Positions 2,723 through 35,531 of a stretch of DNA of 36,695 nucleotides are shown here, one piece after another. Source of the DNA: a virus; IMG/VR virus record IMGVR_UViG_3300025168_000258, positions 1 to 36,695 of that record, one strand, 5' to 3'. The number at the start of each line of letters is the position of its first letter. The stretch's first letter is position 1. The notes below the pieces were generated by a model that was given only the letters and a program-made list of their open reading frames with translations, was not told where the DNA came from and made no database searches. Both the position numbers and the translations under genes were made by a program.

Positions 2723-5113
2723 ATGAGGCAGTCCGACCTAGAACTTGAGATGATCGAACTTGGCAAGTCTAGGTACTGGTCTGCTGTACATAAGGCTAAG
2801 GAACTAGGTATAGAATCCACAACCTCTCCGGGTCAGCGGCTGCTGGCCGAGGCTGTCACCCACATGGGAGACGCCTTGGTTCAGTGGCTCGTTGACGCGG
2901 GGAGCAAGCCCGGCAGGAGACACAGGGCACACGAGTATCTGTCTCAACTAACACCGGGTGTTGTCGCCGCCATCACTTCAAGGTGTGTGCTTGACTGCAT
3001 ATCCCAGAACCGTAAGATTACCGCAACGGCAGTGCATGTCGCTAGGCTACTCGAAGATGAGTTAAAGTTTAAGCACCTAAAGGATGCCGAGCCTGCCCTA
3101 TGGCGTCACATCTTTAGGAATATAGACAGGCATAAGTCTTACGAAACCAAGGCTAAGTTCATCAAGAACACTGCAAGGTATAATGATATTCACTTTGCCG
3201 CGTGGCCTAAGAAGGATGCTGTATCCGTAGGTATTGTGTGCATTGAGTTGCTCCGACAATCCACTGGTATAGTTGAGATTGTTACCAGAGGAGACACTAG
3301 GGGTAGGTCGGTTACTCTCGTCCGTCCCTCCGATGATCTGATGCTCTGGCTCAAGTCATCCCATGAACGATGCGAGTTGCTTAAACCAGTACATATGCCC
3401 ATGGTTCAGTGCCCTAAAGACTGGGGACCCAATAAAGCAGGAGGATTCTACAGCCCTTCGCTTGCCCCAAGGGGCCTAGTCAAGGCATATAATAAGGAGT
3501 ACCTCAAGGAGACAGAGGGACTCGACATGCCTAAGGTTTACAGGTCTGTCAATCGACTTCAAAGAACTGCTTTAGTTGTAGATAGTAAACTGATTGGAGT
3601 GATGCGTCACTTCTGGGAGAACGGGTATGCGGTAGGGGGGCTGCCCTCTAACGAGGATAAACCCCTGCCCTCTAAGCCTCTCGATATTTCGGACAACGAA
3701 GAGTCACGCAGGGAGTGGAGGCGTGACGCTGCCCGGATACACTTCGATAACGAGAGGCAGCAGAGCAAAAGACTACAGGTTTCTAAGGTCCTTTACTTGG
3801 CTGACAAGTTTAAGGATACAACTATTCACTACGCTCATGAATGCGACTTTAGATCGAGAGATTATCCAGTCGCTTCATTCTTACACCCACAGGGTCCTGA
3901 CTGGGCTAGGTCCTCCCTTCGTTTCGCAAGGGGGGTCCCGATAACCGATGACAATGGTGTGTCTTGGTTAGCGGTGCATGCTGCAAACAAGTGGGGTAAT
4001 GACAAGGTATCATTTAATGATCGAGTGAGGTGGGTAGAAGAGAACGAGAAGATGATCCGTGCTGTTGCTAAAGATCCTTTCCGTAACATGGAATGGACTG
4101 ACGCCGACTCACCTTTTCACTTTCTCAATGCGGCCTTTGAGTGGTCGGCTTTCTTGGATTGCGGCATGGGCTTTGTCTCCAGCCTCCCAGTCTCCCAAGA
4201 TGCTACTACTCAGGGGTTGCAAATATATGCTAAACTACTTCTCGACCCAGTGGCTGGGCTCGCTACTAATGTACTGCCCAGAGACACACCCGGCGACATC
4301 TACCAAGACGTTGCTGATCGTGTTATTGAGAAACTTAAAGTAAGCACCGACCCCTATGCATCCTCTTGGTTGTCGTTCGGAATAACGAGGAAGGCAACCA
4401 AGCGTCAGACTATGACTCTTACATACGGGGCCGTGTTCTTTTCCTGCAAGGAGTACACGACGGAATGGTTCTACGAGCAGTTGTCTGAGGGAAGGACAAA
4501 CCCGTTCGGAGATGAGACCTATCGTCCTTGTAGGTTCTTAGCGACCCTTATATGGGAAGCAATCAGTGAGGTTGTCCAGTCTGCACAGGTTGGCATGGCG
4601 TGGTTACGTGAGGTTGCTCGTATCTTTATGGAGAACGACACCACCATTAGATGGTACACCCCCAATAACTTTCTTGTGCAGATGGACTACCCAAATATGA
4701 GGAAGCATGAGGTCAAGACATCCATCGGTCCTGTTATTAGGCAGCACCGTATACGGATGGCAACTGAAGAAAGAGATAGAAGGAAGAACATTAATGCTAT
4801 CGCTGCCAACTACGTCCACTCGCTAGACGGGCTTGGAGGTTTGTTAGGAGAGATAGTGTGCATGGCTGAAGATCAAGGCATCGAGGACATCCTCGCTTGT
4901 CACGACAACGGATCGGTGCATGCACAAAACGTCGGGGTATTCGGAGGGTGTATTAGACAGAGTGCATATAACATATTCAACGAAGACTTGTTGTCTGATT
5001 TTGCAGAACAAGCGTTGCACCTGCTGCCTTCTGGAGTACACTTACCGGATACCCCACAGAGAGGAAGCATGGATCTGACTAAGGTGTTAGATAGCATGTA
5101 CTATTGGAACTAA
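2723..5113 (+). CDS. T7-type single-subunit DNA-directed RNA polymerase
   Basis: This 796-residue enzyme transcribes the middle and late phage genes from phage-specific promoters. Catalytic landmarks of the T7 family are all present: the first metal-binding Asp at 493 (in SQDATTQGLQ), the O-helix TRKATKRQTMTLTYG with Lys560 and Tyr568 (T7 Lys631 and Tyr639), the palm segment ANYVHSLDG, and the second metal-binding His727-Asp728 (T7 His811-Asp812). A region corresponding to the T7 specificity loop follows WYTPNNF. The protein is about 90 residues shorter than T7 RNA polymerase (883), mostly in the N-terminal promoter-binding domain, so its promoters need not look like T7 ones. The ATG directly follows the previous stop. 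The usual T7 inhibitor lysozyme gene is not found nearby. Confidence 0.97.
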   Translation: MRQSDLELEMIELGKSRYWSAVHKAKELGIESTTSPGQRLLAEAVTHMGDALVQWLVDAGSKPGRRHRAHEYLSQLTPGVVAAITSRCVLDCISQNRKITATAVHVARLLEDELKFKHLKDAEPALWRHIFRNIDRHKSYETKAKFIKNTARYNDIHFAAWPKKDAVSVGIVCIELLRQSTGIVEIVTRGDTRGRSVTLVRPSDDLMLWLKSSHERCELLKPVHMPMVQCPKDWGPNKAGGFYSPSLAPRGLVKAYNKEYLKETEGLDMPKVYRSVNRLQRTALVVDSKLIGVMRHFWENGYAVGGLPSNEDKPLPSKPLDISDNEESRREWRRDAARIHFDNERQQSKRLQVSKVLYLADKFKDTTIHYAHECDFRSRDYPVASFLHPQGPDWARSSLRFARGVPITDDNGVSWLAVHAANKWGNDKVSFNDRVRWVEENEKMIRAVAKDPFRNMEWTDADSPFHFLNAAFEWSAFLDCGMGFVSSLPVSQDATTQGLQIYAKLLLDPVAGLATNVLPRDTPGDIYQDVADRVIEKLKVSTDPYASSWLSFGITRKATKRQTMTLTYGAVFFSCKEYTTEWFYEQLSEGRTNPFGDETYRPCRFLATLIWEAISEVVQSAQVGMAWLREVARIFMENDTTIRWYTPNNFLVQMDYPNMRKHEVKTSIGPVIRQHRIRMATEERDRRKNINAIAANYVHSLDGLGGLLGEIVCMAEDQGIEDILACHDNGSVHAQNVGVFGGCIRQSAYNIFNEDLLSDFAEQALHLLPSGVHLPDTPQRGSMDLTKVLDSMYYWN

Positions 5114-15214: not shown

Positions 15215-16336
15215 ATGGCCCTTTATTATGGAGCAGATCCCGCCCGCATGGGTGACTCTTCTGCTACCGATCTTGCCTACCCTGACGGCAAGACTAACGA
15301 ACTTTTCCTGAAGGTTTTCGCTGGTGAAGTCATCACGACCTTCGAGGAAAATAACGCAATGCTGCCGCTGACCCGTGTTCGCACGATCACCAGTGGTAAG
15401 AGTGCACAGTTCCCGACCAGTGGTGTTGCAACGGCATCCTACCACACTCCGGGTGAAAGCATCCTTGCTGCCGGTGTTGACGCTGGTTCGGACAGTTTCG
15501 CCGACTCAAGCAAGTACCTGAGTAAGCCCAATGCTGCTGAGCGTGTTATCTGGATTGATGATATGCTTATCTCCTCGGTCTTCCTCGCCAACATTGACGA
15601 AGCCAAGAATCATTACGATGTCCGGTCGATCTATTCCACCGAAATCGGTCGTGCCTTGGCTTATGCAGCGGACAAGAATCTTATTCGTGTTGCTATCGCA
15701 GCAGCCCGTAAGACCACTGACCGCTTTGGCGTTGCTTCAGGAACTTCCACTACGTACCTCGGTGCCCAGATTGACCACAGTGCTGCTACTGGTACTACTG
15801 CCGGTGACAAGTGGGTCGATTGCCTGTTCCAAGCCGCTCAGAAGATGGACGAAAAGAACGTCCCCTCGACTGACCGCTACGCACTTCTGCGACCTGCGGA
15901 CTATTACAGCATCATCTCCACCAACAAGGATGCCATCAACCGTGACTACGGTAACGAAGGCAACCCCTCTGTTGCATTCCCCGGCGAGATGATCTCGGTT
16001 GCTGGAATTAAGGTTATGAAGACTAACCACCTTCCGGCTCAGGGCGATGAGTCGAGTGGCGGAGAGTCACCTCACGCTGACGCTGGTGTTATGAACGACA
16101 CCGCTGGTGCTAGTGCTGTGCCCCCCGGAACCGCTGGTTCTGGTTACGCGGCTCAGAACTACACCACTACCGAAGGCATTATCTTCCAGAGCGAAGGCAT
16201 TGGTACCGTCAAGTTGATGGACCTCGCCGTCGAGACGGATTACTCTGTTGAACGACAGGGAACGATGATGGTAGCAAAATATGCTATGGGTCATGGTGCC
16301 CTGCGTGAAGAGTGCTGCTTCGAAGTCGTGACGTAA
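15215..16336 (+). CDS. Major capsid protein (T7 gp10-like)
   Basis: The 373-residue protein is the HK97-fold coat protein. Family features include the N-terminal NELFLKVFAGEVITTFEENN, the SGKSAQFPTSGVATASYHTPGE loop region, IDDMLISSVFLANIDEAKNHYDVR, and the C-terminal TDYSVERQGTMMVAKYAMGHGALREECCFEV. It is somewhat longer than T7 gp10A (345), with an apparent Gly/Ala/Ser-rich insertion at about residues 274-310. Two consecutive TAA codons end the gene, so a T7-style 10A/10B frameshift extension is not supported. It has the strongest ribosome site in the region and its own promoter candidate and terminator, as expected for the most abundant virion protein. Confidence 0.96.
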   Translation: MALYYGADPARMGDSSATDLAYPDGKTNELFLKVFAGEVITTFEENNAMLPLTRVRTITSGKSAQFPTSGVATASYHTPGESILAAGVDAGSDSFADSSKYLSKPNAAERVIWIDDMLISSVFLANIDEAKNHYDVRSIYSTEIGRALAYAADKNLIRVAIAAARKTTDRFGVASGTSTTYLGAQIDHSAATGTTAGDKWVDCLFQAAQKMDEKNVPSTDRYALLRPADYYSIISTNKDAINRDYGNEGNPSVAFPGEMISVAGIKVMKTNHLPAQGDESSGGESPHADAGVMNDTAGASAVPPGTAGSGYAAQNYTTTEGIIFQSEGIGTVKLMDLAVETDYSVERQGTMMVAKYAMGHGALREECCFEVVT

Positions 16337-16365
16337 TAAAGAACAGGTCTAGTCTCCCTGTGAAC

Positions 16366-16403
16366 GGGGGTAGCCCGATTCTGTCGGGTTGCCCCCTTTT
16401 TTT
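16366..16403 (+). terminator. Intrinsic terminator after capsid gene
   Basis: GGGGGTAGCCCGA (16366-16378) pairs with TCGGGTTGCCCCC (16384-16396) to give a long GC-rich stem, followed by seven T residues. It lies directly after the capsid gene, exactly where T7 has its T-phi terminator, and would reduce transcription of downstream tail genes relative to capsid. Confidence 0.92.
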
Positions 16404-16418
16404 AAAAAGGAAATCCAA

Positions 16419-17030
16419 ATGTCTGCTAGTAGAACACTTGAGATCGACGCGGTTAATACCATTCTTAGTACCGTTGGTGAACCGCCGGTGTCCTCCCTTG
16501 ATGACCCACTTCAGTCTGACTCGTCAATCGCTCGGAATACCCTGATCGAGATTTCGAGGGAGGTGCAGATGGAAGGATGGCACTTTAATACAGTTAGAGA
16601 GGTACTCCTTGCTCCTGATGCGGCAGATAGTAATAGGATTAAGGTACAAGATAACGTAGTCCGTGTTGACCTTGAGACACAGAATACAGCGTCATATGAT
16701 ATTGTCCAACGAGGTGCATACTTGTATGACCGCAAGGGACAAACCGACGCATTTACGGCAACCCTGAAGGCAACAGTAATGTATGTGCTGGACTGGGACG
16801 AACTTCCGGAACCCGCTCGAAGGTACATAACTATCCGGGCTGCACGGATTTTTCAAGATAGGTTTGTTGGCTCTGGAGAACACCATGGGTTCAACATGAT
16901 GGACGAGTTCAAGGCCATGGCTTTGCTTAAGGAATTCGAGAGCAACACAGGTGGGCACAGTATTTTCGACAACTACGATGTATCCCGTGTTCTCAGCCGT
17001 AACTCCATAATTAATAGGGTAGGACGCTAA
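16419..17030 (+). CDS. Tail tubular protein A (T7 gp11-like)
   Basis: The 203-residue product (T7 gp11 is 196) forms the adaptor ring between portal and nozzle. Typical features are the N-terminal ASRTLEIDAVNTILSTVGEPPV, MEGWHFNT at about residue 48, and WDELPEPARRYITIRAARIFQDR near the middle. ATG 16419 follows AAGGAAATCCAA right after the terminator; an in-frame TTG at 16389 lies inside the terminator stem and is rejected. Its stop overlaps the start of the next gene by one base. Confidence 0.94.
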   Translation: MSASRTLEIDAVNTILSTVGEPPVSSLDDPLQSDSSIARNTLIEISREVQMEGWHFNTVREVLLAPDAADSNRIKVQDNVVRVDLETQNTASYDIVQRGAYLYDRKGQTDAFTATLKATVMYVLDWDELPEPARRYITIRAARIFQDRFVGSGEHHGFNMMDEFKAMALLKEFESNTGGHSIFDNYDVSRVLSRNSIINRVGR

Positions 17031-30325: not shown

Positions 30326-30550
30326 ATGGTAGACATGAAGAAACTCATGGAGACTCTTCACCACGGAATCGGAGAAGAACTCCTTAGGCGAATCGACACC
30401 GGGGAAGCCACTTCGGCTGACCTTAGTGTCGCCCGTCAGTTCCTTAAGGACAACGGCATTGACGCTTCGGCAAGCCAGAGTGAGCCTCTGTTGAATCTTG
30501 CTAAGGTTTTGCCGTTTGATCCGGAAGAGCCCATTGAGGAGGCTGGATGA
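30326..30550 (+). CDS. Small terminase subunit (T7 gp18-like)
   Basis: The 74-residue product has the simple all-helical pattern MKKLMETLHHGIGEELLRRIDTGEATSADLSVARQFLKDNGIDA found in short T7-type small terminases (T7 gp18 is 89). It recognises concatemeric DNA and works with the large subunit. Position just before the large terminase supports this. Ribosome site AAGGAAATCAA. Its stop overlaps the ATG of a 40-codon ORF. Confidence 0.85.
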   Translation: MVDMKKLMETLHHGIGEELLRRIDTGEATSADLSVARQFLKDNGIDASASQSEPLLNLAKVLPFDPEEPIEEAG

Positions 30551-30669
30551 TTTTTCTTAAGAAGACAACCGATAAGTCAACATTAGGGGCTATCATGACA
30601 ATACTGAGCAAGGTTGCTTGCTTGGTAAAGCCCATTAAGATTCTCTGGAATAAGATTAAATGGAAATAG
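30547..30669 (+). CDS. Short cationic ORF between terminase genes, 40 aa
   Basis: ATG 30547 overlaps the stop of the small terminase gene (GGATGATT) and has GAGGAGG just upstream, so translation is plausible. The 40-residue peptide is basic (nine Lys) with a hydrophobic centre (GAIMTILSKVACLV) and a Trp/Ile/Lys-rich end ILWNKIKWK, an amphipathic and membrane-active look. In T7 the spanin genes 18.5/18.7 lie at the same place, but no spanin-like layout is visible here. It overlaps the large terminase start by 10 bases. Its product might aid lysis, or the ORF might only couple translation. Confidence 0.5.
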   Translation: MIFLKKTTDKSTLGAIMTILSKVACLVKPIKILWNKIKWK

Positions 30670-32318
30670 ATCCCAGACTTAAAGACTTCCGCAACTTCCT
30701 GTATCTTGCGTGGGACCAACTAGGGCTTCCTGAGCCCACAACGGTCCAGTACGATATTGCGGATTATGTCCAAAACGGTCCCAAGCGTCGGTGCGTACAG
30801 GCATTCCGTGGGGTCGGCAAGTCATGGATTACGTCGGCTTATGTGTGCCATCAGTTGCTCCTCAAGCCCGACACTAACATTCTGGTGGTCTCCGCGTCCA
30901 AGCAGAGAGCAGATGATTTCTCTACATTCACTCTTCGATTAATCTCGGAAATGCCCCTGCTTCAGCACTTGAGACCCGGAGATCACCAGCGAAATTCAAA
31001 GATCGCTTTCGATGTAGGTCCGGCCCCTAACGCCCACGCACCCTCGGTAACATCCAAGGGAATAACGAGCGCAATCACCGGCAGCCGTGCAGACCTGATC
31101 GTAGCGGACGATGTGGAAAGTTGGAACAACTCAGCCACGCAGACAATGAGAGACAAACTCAGCGAGACCATCAAGGAGTTCGATGCTGTCTTGAAGCCCG
31201 GAGGCCATGTGCTGTATCTGGGCACCCCTCAGACTGAGCAGTCGATCTACAACGCACTCCCTCAGCGCGGCTACGATATCCGCATCTGGCCTGCTAGGTA
31301 TCCGAAGGAAAAGCAAAAGATCCTGTACGGAGACAAACTTGCCCCCATTATTGAGGACAATTGGGAAGAGGAGAAGCAGGGGGACCCGACTGACCCCGGA
31401 CGGTTTGATGACTTCGACCTACTAGAAAGAGAAGCATCTTACGGTCGGTCAGGCTTTGACCTTCAGTTCATGCTAGACACATCTCTCAGTGATGCTGGGC
31501 GTTACCCGCTTAAACTGTCGGACCTCGTGGTCATGAGTCTCAATCCTGAGAATGCCCCAGAGAAAGTCATCTGGGCAGCGGAGCCTAGTCTTGCCCACAA
31601 GGAACTGCCCAATGTCGGCTTCTCAGGGGACCGCTTCTATCGCCCCATGGCTGTCACTGGTGACTGGGTCTCGTACACAGGTAGCGTCCTCGCGGTAGAC
31701 CCCTCAGGCCGGGGACAGGACGAAACTGCTTACTGTGTTATTAAGATGCTTAATGGCTTCCTTTATGTCACCGACATCGGGGGGATACCGGGGGGCTACA
31801 GTCAGGAGACGCTGGAGTCTCTGGCTAAGATCGCCAAGAACCAAAAGGTTAATGCGGTCATTATTGAGAGCAACTTTGGGGATGGCATGTTCACCGAACT
31901 GCTTAAACCCATTATGACTAAGATTTATCCGGTCAGTATGGAAGAGGTTAGACACTCGATCCAGAAGGAGAAGCGGATAATCGACACCCTAGAGCCCCTG
32001 ATGAACCAGCACAAGTTGGTTATTGATGAGTCTCTAGTTGAAAAAGATTATCGGTCTACCCAGCATCTCACACCAGAAAAAGCCCTCCAGTACCAACTTT
32101 TCTACCAGATGACTCGTATCACTAGGCAGAAGGGGTCCCTAGCCCACGACGATAGGCTTGATGTCTTGGCTATTGGGGTAAACTATTGGGTGGAGCAGAT
32201 GGCCCAGAATGCTGACGATAAGATCAAAAGCCGAAAGGACCATCTCATGGATCGAGCCTTAGAGAACTTCATGGAGAGTACGGTAGGCCAAAAGCCCCGT
32301 GGAAACACATGGATGTAG
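30660..32318 (+). CDS. Large terminase subunit (T7 gp19-like)
   Basis: The 552-residue motor packages DNA into the procapsid. The ATPase domain has Walker A FRGVGKSW (Lys54) and Walker B IVADDVE (Asp150/Asp151). The RNase H-like nuclease domain shows AVDPSGRG with Asp347, a middle acidic site around VIIESNFGDGMF, and AHDDRLDVLAIGVNYW with Asp497, Asp498 and Asp501. Length is close to T7 gp19 (586). T7-type terminases generate direct terminal repeats, which is relevant for reading the genome ends. The 3' end overlaps the next gene by 10 bases. Confidence 0.95.
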   Translation: MEIDPRLKDFRNFLYLAWDQLGLPEPTTVQYDIADYVQNGPKRRCVQAFRGVGKSWITSAYVCHQLLLKPDTNILVVSASKQRADDFSTFTLRLISEMPLLQHLRPGDHQRNSKIAFDVGPAPNAHAPSVTSKGITSAITGSRADLIVADDVESWNNSATQTMRDKLSETIKEFDAVLKPGGHVLYLGTPQTEQSIYNALPQRGYDIRIWPARYPKEKQKILYGDKLAPIIEDNWEEEKQGDPTDPGRFDDFDLLEREASYGRSGFDLQFMLDTSLSDAGRYPLKLSDLVVMSLNPENAPEKVIWAAEPSLAHKELPNVGFSGDRFYRPMAVTGDWVSYTGSVLAVDPSGRGQDETAYCVIKMLNGFLYVTDIGGIPGGYSQETLESLAKIAKNQKVNAVIIESNFGDGMFTELLKPIMTKIYPVSMEEVRHSIQKEKRIIDTLEPLMNQHKLVIDESLVEKDYRSTQHLTPEKALQYQLFYQMTRITRQKGSLAHDDRLDVLAIGVNYWVEQMAQNADDKIKSRKDHLMDRALENFMESTVGQKPRGNTWM

Positions 32319-33324: not shown

Positions 33325-33621
33325 ATGGCCCACGAGAAGAGACGTAAGCGTCTAATTAAGAAGCATAGGCTCAAGGGCGTCAATAAGCCCAAGCGGACAC
33401 CCGACCACCCCAAGAAGTCCCACATGGTCTTGGCTCAGGTAGGACACCAACTCAAGATGATTAGATTCGGGGAGCAGGGGGCTAGTACCGCTGGGAAGCC
33501 AAAGGCCGGTGAAGGAGCCAAGATGAAAGCCAAGCGGAAATCCTTCAAGGCCCGGCACCGCAAGAATATCGCCAAGGGGAAGATGTCTGCTGCCTATTGG
33601 GCGGATAAGACTAAATGGTGA
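33325..33621 (+). CDS. Conserved Lys/Arg-rich phage protein, 98 aa
   Basis: The 98-residue product is highly basic. Its core (VLAQVGHQLKMIRFGEQG, then KRKSFKARHRKNIAKGKMSAAYWADKTKW) is a pattern that I know from a widespread small protein of marine and freshwater phages. The conserved RKSFKARH..NI.KGKMSAAYWA end suggests a nucleic-acid or structural role, but no activity is established. It is the last gene before the long non-coding region. Ribosome site GAGGAAGG. Confidence 0.75.
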   Translation: MAHEKRRKRLIKKHRLKGVNKPKRTPDHPKKSHMVLAQVGHQLKMIRFGEQGASTAGKPKAGEGAKMKAKRKSFKARHRKNIAKGKMSAAYWADKTKW

Positions 33622-33786
33622 TGCTCTTCTGGCCCCGCCTCTACATCCTGTTGGAAATCCCTAGAATGGCCCTTTGTGCCCTTGGGACTTTTTAGAAGAA
33701 AAAATCTGAATACCTAACATCCCACCCACCCGGGGGTCAGCCCCCCGTGGGGGGTACTTGCGATTGAGACTCAGTCTCATCCAGTG

Positions 33787-33800
33787 GTTCCACGTGGAAC
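33787..33800. promoter_or_regulatory. parS-like ParB-binding palindrome
   Basis: The 14-base perfect palindrome GTTCCACGTGGAAC, with flanks giving GGTTCCACGTGGAACA, reads on the minus strand as TGTTCCACGTGGAACC, the chromosomal parS of Pseudomonas aeruginosa as I know it. The general bacterial parS (TGTTTCACGTGAAACA) differs at only a few positions. A given 14-mer is expected about 0.00014 times in this window. No ParB or ParA gene is visible in the phage, so binding would be by the host ParB. Confidence 0.6.
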
Positions 33801-33930
33801 ATCAGGACCCGGGGGGGTCCATTCGTTCATCCGGATATATGGATGGATGCCGATCCTGGATCTACGCTTGGGGTCCGCTGTAACCTGTTGATATCACTGG
33901 GTTTACGCGTGGCCCTAGGTGTTTTTTTTA

Positions 33931-33955
33931 TAAACCCTTGGTACCAAAGGACTTA
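33931..33955. repeat. 25-bp direct repeat, copy 1
   Basis: A 25-base element beginning TAAACCC and ending GGACTTA, with the perfect inner palindrome TTGGTACCAA, is repeated without mismatch at 33993-34017, a spacing of 62 bases. It follows a run of eight T. A weak host-type -35/-10 pair (CTTACA at 33952, TAATAT at 33974, 16 bases apart) overlaps the end of this copy, so the repeat may be a regulator site or part of a promoter for the structured RNA downstream. Confidence 0.85.
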
Positions 33956-33992
33956 CATCAGTTTAGGACCAAATAATATTTATTTATGGCTG

Positions 33993-34017
33993 TAAACCCT
34001 TGGTACCAAAGGACTTA
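33993..34017. repeat. 25-bp direct repeat, copy 2
   Basis: Exact second copy of the element at 33931-33955. Two further short iterations of ATACCCTA lie just after it (around 34032 and 34047). Position about 50-70 bases before the structured RNA region would suit an operator or promoter element for it. Confidence 0.85.
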
Positions 34018-34064
34018 GATACTTTCACACCGATACCCTACTGAAATACCCTATTGTGCTGGGG

Positions 34065-34562
34065 CGATTATGCCGATATAAAGGGTGGCAACGGGAACAC
34101 GAAAGGAACCCGGAACCGACAACCTAGCGTAGCAGCCCCCAGCAGGGTCAGTTCTATCTGAAATTAATCAGAGGTAGGACCTAGAACGGAAGCGGCATCG
34201 GGTTTCGGCAACCCGGTACAACCCTTCCTGCGGTGGATGCCCCCAGCCAAATAAGTGGGGGGTCTTGTTGGAGCGGTATAGGGGACTGGTGTCCGCGCGT
34301 AACATCGTGCGGGCCTTGGAGAACCGACAGCCGCAAGGGTACTCCCCGCATCAGCCTACTAGGGTCGGTGCGGAACGAGGTACCATCTCCATGGGGGTCT
34401 TTCCCGGTATAGTCGGGGCATTGGAAACGATGCCTTTGTAAGACGGGGACCCCCACGGACGTAAGAGTACGCCCTTGTTCAAGGGTAGGGACTAGTCCGG
34501 GGATAAGGTGCCTAGAGTAGCACCCCCCGGCATCCAACGGCCCGGCTAGGGGATGAGCGATG
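34065..34562 (+). ncRNA. Probable large structured non-coding RNA (novel)
   Basis: This stretch lacks a supportable ORF but contains many local helices on the + strand. Clear ones are: GTTCTA 34151-34156 with TAGAAC 34182-34187 enclosing TCTGA 34157-34161 with TCAGA 34168-34172; GGAAG 34188-34192 with CTTCC 34224-34228 enclosing CGGGTT 34199-34204 with AACCCG 34210-34215; CCGCGCG 34293-34299 with CGTGCGG 34306-34312; ACCGAC 34323-34328 with GTCGGT 34364-34369; CCATGGGGGTC 34389-34399 with 34448-34458; GGCATTG 34417-34423 with CGATGCC 34428-34434 capped by a GAAA tetraloop; CCCTT 34472 with AAGGG 34481; and CCGGGG 34497 plus GGTGC 34507 with GCACC 34520 plus CCCCGG 34525. It lies between the repeat-bearing leader and a terminator-like hairpin. 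I do not recognise it as tRNA, tmRNA, RNase P, 6S or a group I intron. Exact ends are estimates. Confidence 0.7.
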
Positions 34563-34589
34563 ATTGCTAGGAATATTCAAGTGTGTAAC

Positions 34590-34620
34590 CCCCCGGCTGC
34601 CTACTGGTAGCCGGGGGTCT
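34590..34620 (+). terminator. Terminator-like hairpin after structured RNA
   Basis: CCCCCGGCT (34590-34598) pairs perfectly with AGCCGGGGG (34609-34617) around a ten-base loop and is followed by TCTTCG, a weak T tract. It separates the structured RNA from the first early gene at 34664. It may end the RNA or partly attenuate early transcription. Confidence 0.65.
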
Positions 34621-34663
34621 TCGTAGGGGGATTGTCCCCTGCAATACTTGGAGACACTAGCCA

Positions 34664-35053
34664 ATGGCTAACCAAACCACTATCGTTTCGGACATTCTCA
34701 ACGGTTCCTCCAGCGATGCCAGCAAGTCGGATGCTATGGCTCTGACTGCTCTGGCTATTCAGGCGGAGCGTATTGAGAAGGAATGGAAGTCGTTCAACCG
34801 TATGGTCGTTCGTTCTGACATCGACTCCAAGGTTTCCGACAAGAAGTGTACTGCCGCCTATCTGGGGTACGTCCGCTTCATTCGGCACCTTCGATCTACC
34901 CTCCGTGCCATGCCTGCGGGCACCACGGCCAAGGGTGGGGTCACGCGACAGGATGTCTTCCTCCGTTATGGTGGTGAATGCGACCCCAATCTCGGGGCAC
35001 GTGTCACCGCTTCCGAAGCCCGCGTCCGCGTCAAGGCCCTTATCAAGGGCTGA
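34664..35053 (+). CDS. First early protein, 129 aa, unknown function
   Basis: The ORF starts at ATG 34664 behind GGAGACACTAGCC and ends before a strong terminator, so it can be transcribed as a single-gene unit. The product is mainly helical, with a Ser/Asp-rich N-terminus (DILNGSSSDASKSD), an EKEWKSFNRMVV middle and a basic C-terminus (TASEARVRVKALIKG). No motif recognised. As the first gene after the non-coding region it occupies the position of T7 gene 0.3, which encodes an anti-restriction DNA mimic, but this protein is not strongly acidic and does not look like Ocr. Confidence 0.75.
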   Translation: MANQTTIVSDILNGSSSDASKSDAMALTALAIQAERIEKEWKSFNRMVVRSDIDSKVSDKKCTAAYLGYVRFIRHLRSTLRAMPAGTTAKGGVTRQDVFLRYGGECDPNLGARVTASEARVRVKALIKG

Positions 35054-35082
35054 CGTTGGGCGGGCTTCGGCACACTCATCCA

Positions 35083-35116
35083 CCCCTCAGTATCGAAAGG
35101 TACTGGGGGGTTTTTT
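35083..35116 (+). terminator. Intrinsic terminator after first early gene
   Basis: CCCCTCAGTA (35083-35092) pairs with TACTGGGGGG (35101-35110) and is followed by six T residues (35111-35116). A classical rho-independent terminator between the first and second early genes. Confidence 0.88.
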
Positions 35117-35245: not shown

Positions 35246-35429
35246 ACTGGAGCGTAAGTGTAGAACGTGCGGGGATTCCATCAGTAAGATCCTGAAGGAG
35301 AGGACCTGTCTCCCCTGCCAGTGGGAGCCTATGGTATCCTCTCCTCCAGCCCCTTTGTACTTCTGCAATAGGTGCGGTGCATGGGGGGCGAGAGGGTGCA
35401 AGTGTCAGAAGGGTAGGCTTTCAGACTAG
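35232..35429 (+). CDS. Small double zinc-ribbon early protein, 65 aa
   Basis: Eight cysteines are arranged as Cys10-x2-Cys13, Cys26-x2-Cys29, Cys45-x2-Cys48 and Cys56-x-Cys58, which would bind two zinc ions. Small zinc-ribbon proteins of phages often bind RNA polymerase or nucleic acid. The start at ATG 35232 has GAGGAG upstream; an in-frame codon at 35154 would run through the whole preceding ORF and is not favoured. Ends just before a GC-rich hairpin. Function inferred only in general terms. Confidence 0.7.
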   Translation: MPEIRLERKCRTCGDSISKILKERTCLPCQWEPMVSSPPAPLYFCNRCGAWGARGCKCQKGRLSD

Positions 35430-35437
35430 ACAGACGA

Positions 35438-35483
35438 GGGGGTAGCCGGGTAGGAGAAACGACCTGCCTACCCGGTTACCCCC
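35438..35483 (+). other. Long GC-rich hairpin without T tract
   Basis: GGGGGTAGCCGGGTAGG (35438-35454) pairs with CCTACCCGGTTACCCCC (35467-35483), a 17-bp stem with one G-T pair and a twelve-base loop. No T run follows. Its outer half is similar to the capsid terminator stem (GGGGGTAGCC). It could be a processing site, an attenuator or a stabilising 3' end. Confidence 0.75.
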
Positions 35484-35531
35484 CAGACTGTCCGGTCGAT
35501 AGTGACCGCCAGTATTCACGGAGACAATCCA

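Follow-up and report, generated by a model that had tools for sequence, protein, structure and literature searches.

The window, i.e., the whole stretch of 36,695 nucleotides analysed here, is the genome, complete at about 36.6 kb, of a marine T7-like virus of bacteria. Besides a T7-type RNA polymerase gene (2723–5113), it codes for DNA polymerase, primase/helicase, head-tail connector, internal virion protein and both terminase subunits, the small one (phrog_891) at 30326–30550 and the large one (TerL) at 30660–32318. The contig ends (3–131 and 36567–36695) share 129 bp with a single mismatch and, hence, the record is a circular assembly of the complete genome, though classed as linear. The nearest TerL relatives in IMG/VR are L002–L007 (94–98% identical), the nearest isolates are Autographiviridae of Roseobacter and Pelagibacter (about 60%), and a TerL scan of bacterial genomes revealed no close host or prophage. 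tRNA genes were not found in the whole window genome. The lowest folding z of the genome (–6.6, 20 shuffles) is seen at 34588–35087, comprising the mRNA of the first early gene (gene 1) with flanking hairpins, and the second lowest (–6.3) where the gene of the major head protein ends (16088–16587). Strong hairpins separate several of the early genes, and a long GC hairpin without T run (GGGGGTAGCCGGGTAGG...CCTGCCTACCCGGTTACCCCC, 35425–35500) likewise lies between early genes.

The segment 33622–34663, connecting the last late genes to gene 1, is without a credible gene except for one 24-codon frame; in T7-like phages, such a junction of late end and early start usually is where the two genome ends meet. 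The order at the locus is late end, parS-like palindrome, two leader repeats, promoter, folded RNA, two hairpins, gene 1 and terminator. The 24-codon frame (33621–33695) overlaps the preceding stop codon (MLFWPRLYILLEIPRMALCALGTF), is apparently kept in L005 and, being located just before the genome end, possibly encodes a small membrane protein. The palindrome GGTTCCACGTGGAACA (33786–33801), which we take to be one mismatch off the chromosomal-type parS site TGTTCCACGTGGAACA, has counterparts with one to two mismatches in L002 (9134), L003 (7084), L004 (7974) and L005 (5151), and is possibly a site for a host ParB protein in the leader of a T7-like phage. By repeat search, two 28-nt leader repeats 62 nt apart were located, TAAACCCTTGGTACCAAAGGACTTACAT at 33931–33958 and a second copy at 33993–34020, with the palindrome CCTTGGTACCAAAGG inside. 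In an IMG/VR scan, this pattern was found only in the sister phages L002–L006 and L093, and the repeats (33931–34020) are possibly sites for a regulator or for terminus recognition.

From the sequence, we infer the promoter, the 3' hairpin and the early position of the RNA. The sigma70-like promoter (TTGTGC-17-TATAAA, plus strand, 34054–34082) would place the RNA start probably near 34089; its counterpart in L002, TTGACA-17-TACATT, reaches a promoter scan score of 10/12, and the window's own site scores below the threshold of the scan. The 5' limit assumed in an earlier sequence-only reading of this DNA, 34065, falls inside the promoter and has to be shifted, with the RNA probably extending from about 34089 to the hairpin at 34590–34617. 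Accordingly delimited, the transcript predicted from energy and covariation comprises 34089–34617 on the plus strand. The 12-bp GC hairpin at its end, followed by UCUUC, is terminator-like or a candidate for processing, termination being uncertain because the tail is not U-rich. Only about 45 nt separate it from gene 1, with a second hairpin (GUAGGGG/CCCCUGC, 34623–34642, plus strand) in the 5' untranslated stretch of this gene; in L005 and L093, hairpins of other sequence are present at the places of both. A strong intrinsic terminator predicted after gene 1 (35082–35111, plus strand) sets the 3' limit of the unit.

The stretch 34089–34587 encodes a non-coding sequence of about 500 nt in which no fewer than nine helices are conserved and a long-range stem closes the fold. 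The earlier statement that it holds no supportable gene is borne out, since many 1–2-nt indels in the alignment of window and L002 disrupt every frame. Folding energy alone is only moderately unusual. At 34065–34562, the z value is –2.35 with 2 of 100 shuffles folding as well, while –1.46 was obtained for the antisense strand; a scan with only 20 shuffles gave about –4 (up to –4.4), the third lowest among 73 genome windows, and coding windows of the same genome attain similar values. Across the tested sequences, the single-sequence z ranges from –0.2 to –2.35. The RNA thus folds better than most shuffled controls, the effect being moderate.

Covariation is far more telling. For this test, one sequence was folded alone, its pairs were transferred by alignment to a relative and doubly compensated changes were counted, with the same substitutions permuted among like bases within 100-nt segments as null. 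The sequences belong to the type A set of the RNA, comprising window and L002, both complete, and the 5' half from L004. From the window to L002 (76% identical), 17 doubly compensated pairs were established (null mean 3.9, maximum 11 in 3000), in the reverse direction 13 (mean 4.0, maximum 11) and from L002 to the 5' half of L004 six (mean 0.5, maximum 4); the window compared with L004 alone was not significant (2 versus a null of 1.2). The adjacent non-coding leader showed no compensation (null 3.0) and 500 nt of the RNA polymerase gene only two (null 3.7). In gene 1, also taken as control, compensated pairs were slightly in excess (4 versus 1.0, p = 0.017) and, hence, the structure may extend into the mRNA. 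In a curated structure of 84 pairs, 98% of the cells in the three-sequence alignment are paired, compared to 40–61% after sliding, and 17 pairs are changed on both sides; as this structure was chosen on the same three sequences, the independent test is the one starting from a single folded sequence. From L002 to the window, the antisense strand gave nine compensations (p = 0.018) without reduction of broken pairs, compared to p < 0.001 for sense, and from the window to L002 15 versus 4.5, which is not clearly weaker than sense; altogether, the sense strand is favoured. The covariation of a second set of sequences, type B, is weak when taken alone (5' part p = 0.013; 3' part not significant). 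In the comparisons with L002 and L004, the signal is strong and specific to the RNA stretch and, together with the folding against shuffles, supports the large, multi-helix structured RNA claimed in the sequence-only reading.

The complementary arms listed there, including 34151–34180, 34293–34312 and 34323–34369, sit where they had been placed. At the 5' end, a CGGG...CCCG hairpin (34092–34112) is the weakest of the helices, with 75% of cells paired in an ambiguous alignment. Overlooked so far was the closing helix, in which CCUAGC (34123–34128) pairs with GCUAGG (34566–34571) across about 450 nt; all six pairs are kept in L002, one of them doubly changed by a U-A to C-G compensation. The best covariation is found in the 8-bp hairpin at 34151–34180, which is completely kept in L002 (8/8) and doubly changed in six of eight pairs across window, L002 and L004. 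It is followed by the stem GGAAG/CUUCC (34188–34228; 5/5 in L002) enclosing a hairpin at 34198–34216, with four plus one doubly changed pairs, by the hairpin CCCCCA/UGGGGG (34240–34261; 6/6 in L002, two doubly changed) and by a stem (34286–34319, one doubly changed pair) around the hairpin 34293–34312. The GAAA-capped hairpin GGCAUUG-GAAA-CGAUGCC (34417–34434) is present as described; counted as 34416–34435, it retains eight of eight pairs in L002, two of them doubly changed, and is surrounded by the stem UCCC/GGGA (34402–34449). Less certain are two other stems which can indeed be formed in the window, the 11-bp outer stem with one mismatch (34389–34399/34448–34458) and the stem at 34323–34369, because only 8 of 11 and 4 of 6 pairs, respectively, are kept in L002. 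All these helices are on the plus strand, as is the conserved 3' core (34435–34550), which is 94–96% identical to L002 and contains a hairpin (34471–34486), the palindrome GGACUAGUCC (34489–34498) and the two-part stem at 34497–34530, correctly predicted with its bulge, AUAA. Conservation of this core is comparable to or above that of gene 1 (72–100% per 50-nt block), and identity in the middle of the RNA falls to 48–74%. The 5' two thirds evolve faster than the core while keeping their helices, whereas the helices 34471–34486 and 34497–34530 give no covariation signal because they are invariant in the relatives.

Gene 1 (34664–35053, plus strand), the first early gene, encodes a 129-aa orphan protein that matches nothing in Pfam, PHROG or PADLOC, and the gene is swapped along with the RNA. 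Type A RNA is carried by the window, L002 and, as 5' half, L004. Type B, found in L005 (99.9% identical to L006) and L093, has a different body, likewise of about 500 nt, in the same slot, with the 3' part common to L005 and L093. L093 and L002 are 92.5% identical over leader, promoter and about the first 20 nt of the RNA, beyond which they diverge, becoming similar again from near the end of gene 1 onward. The gene 1 proteins are 84% identical between window and L002 (type A) and 33% between L005 and L093 (type B), whereas proteins of different type show no similarity and are unrelated by profile comparison. Both are predicted to be mostly helical at low confidence (pLDDT about 70), and the type A model has no meaningful fold match. 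As RNA and gene 1 change together while promoter/leader and downstream DNA are common, they form one moving cassette; with two cassette types to go by, the joint exchange may represent a single recombination event. A third allele is hinted at by L003, in which the first 25 nt of the RNA differ again. When type A was aligned structurally with type B by a self-written Sankoff-type procedure, z lay between –1 and 2.2, which does not demonstrate common descent, and a covariance model of the type A 5' half does not detect type B. Applied to 74 loci (0.76 Mb), this model found only its own three members. Pattern matches in L088–L090 and L094 were dismissed as chance, resembling coding DNA unrelated to the RNA. 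To our knowledge, such an exchange pattern has no counterpart in other families of large phage RNAs.

Judging by position, promoter and hairpin, this would be the earliest RNA transcribed once the phage has entered, with some of the transcripts terminated or processed ahead of gene 1. In T7-like genomes, the early left-end position is usually occupied by the first-acting anti-host genes. With joint exchange, conserved core and variable arms suggesting a trans-acting RNA linked to gene 1 and under host-driven diversifying pressure, our best explanation, held with moderate confidence, is an early trans-acting RNA tied to the gene 1 protein. Host RNA polymerase would transcribe it from the sigma70-like promoter once the left end of the genome enters the cell, most transcripts would end or be cut at the hairpin 34590–34617, and read-through would yield gene 1 in smaller amount. 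The freed RNA would then act in trans early in infection, most likely forming an RNA-protein particle with, or being balanced against, the gene 1 protein and having a host target. A partnership directed against the host would explain the joint swap and the variation among close relatives; it is putative, no relative of the gene 1 product being known. A more far-reaching version, which appears rather unlikely to us, is a swappable RNA-plus-protein cassette at the entry end of T7-like phages, whose alleles would form an early particle disarming a host function. If true, alleles would be swapped between close relatives much like anti-defence genes, each RNA with its own small helical protein.

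In the main rival reading, the RNA would serve the early transcript as a cis-acting leader, controlling termination at 34590–34617 (put-type antiterminator-like), translation of gene 1 or cleavage of the RNase III type, and would have no trans role of its own. The location directly upstream of gene 1 without a second promoter, the two hairpins following the RNA and the exchange together with gene 1 are all in line with this possibility. However, the majority of the covarying helices lie well away from terminator and start codon, and an RNA of 500 nt, with its conserved 3' core and its helix closing over a long range, would be unusually large, the phage leaders of put-type or other cis kind known to us being far smaller. 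We therefore regard a pure leader as possible but not probable. Much less can be said for a phi29 pRNA-like packaging RNA working with TerL. The phi29 pRNA gene also lies at a genome end, and the RNA is encoded at the left end of the genome about 1.8 kb after TerL, but Rfam gives no match, including phage pRNA, a small terminase gene is present, TerL is 94–98% conserved while the RNA body changes completely, and T7-type motors package without RNA; this role is highly improbable. Hardly more credible are helices acting in DNA, as cruciform, origin or terminase site, or being by-products of repeats, as might be supposed from the palindromic repeats of the adjoining leader near the genome end, since the sense strand folds and covaries better than the antisense strand, G-U pairs and the GAAA loop are kept, and the palindrome-bearing leader itself is without compensation. 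Chance folding of fast-drifting sequence, with compensation as artefact of alignment choice in two sequences, would fit the small number of sequences and the modest single-sequence energies, but is very unlikely given a fold taken from one sequence, a permuted null, three negative or weak control regions and an independent third sequence, L004, supporting the 5' helices.

Rfam revealed no fitting family, whether the RNA stretch was searched with E up to 10 or window, L002, L005 and L093 were screened with both gathering and permissive thresholds; the hits to MIR399 and NsiR1 are chance hairpin matches. Readings as group I/II intron or hammerhead were rejected, as no model matches, and as tRNA, as none was found. 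By blastn, neither the region, the 3' core nor the type B core matches other phages, nor does the region match plasmids, and a description of such an RNA was not found in the literature. Without an Rfam match, the RNA is not GOLLD or ROOL, in agreement with the earlier suspicion, where it had not been recognised. A parallel in layout is offered by type III toxin-antitoxin systems (ToxIN, AbiF/AvcID type), sharing the order promoter, structured RNA, imperfect terminator and small protein gene. In contrast to these, tandem RNA repeats are missing, with only one 17-nt repeat pair inside the RNA, gene 1 has no match to ToxN/AbiF/AvcD-like or other toxin families, and the locus is a phage early region. 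Like the packaging RNA of phi29, the RNA is structured and encoded near a genome end, but it is 3–4 times larger, has no Rfam model match and coexists with a small terminase protein.

Large phage RNAs known to us are few, and the functions of GOLLD and ROOL are still unassigned. What the present locus adds is such an RNA in a compact T7-like genome, with predicted promoter, end, neighbour gene and natural allelic swaps. Together, these features make the question of large-phage-RNA function testable by deletion and trans-complementation in a small genome. GOLLD and ROOL are large, ornate and phage-borne RNAs of unknown function; GOLLD has a conserved 3' and a variable 5' region, usually exceeds 800 nt and is found near tRNA islands in a lysis-linked position (PMC12286853). 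The RNA described here resembles GOLLD in its conserved 3' and less conserved 5' region, a likeness and not homology, but differs in having about 500 nt, a genome without tRNA, no covariance model match with E up to 10 and an early position; compared with the homo-oligomeric cage of GOLLD, the invariant palindrome GGACUAGUCC is only suggestive. ROOL (PMC12286853) is likewise a large, phage-encoded RNA, comparable in size and rich in helices, but the present RNA does not match its model, has no tRNA neighbours and is part of the early leader in a T7-like phage. Because sequence models and tRNA neighbourhood both fail, it cannot be filed under either. The covarying helices agree with what characterises large structured phage RNAs in general, the transcript being predicted from sequence. 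In our reading, this is a new family of large phage RNAs, nearest in kind to GOLLD and ROOL and a member of neither.
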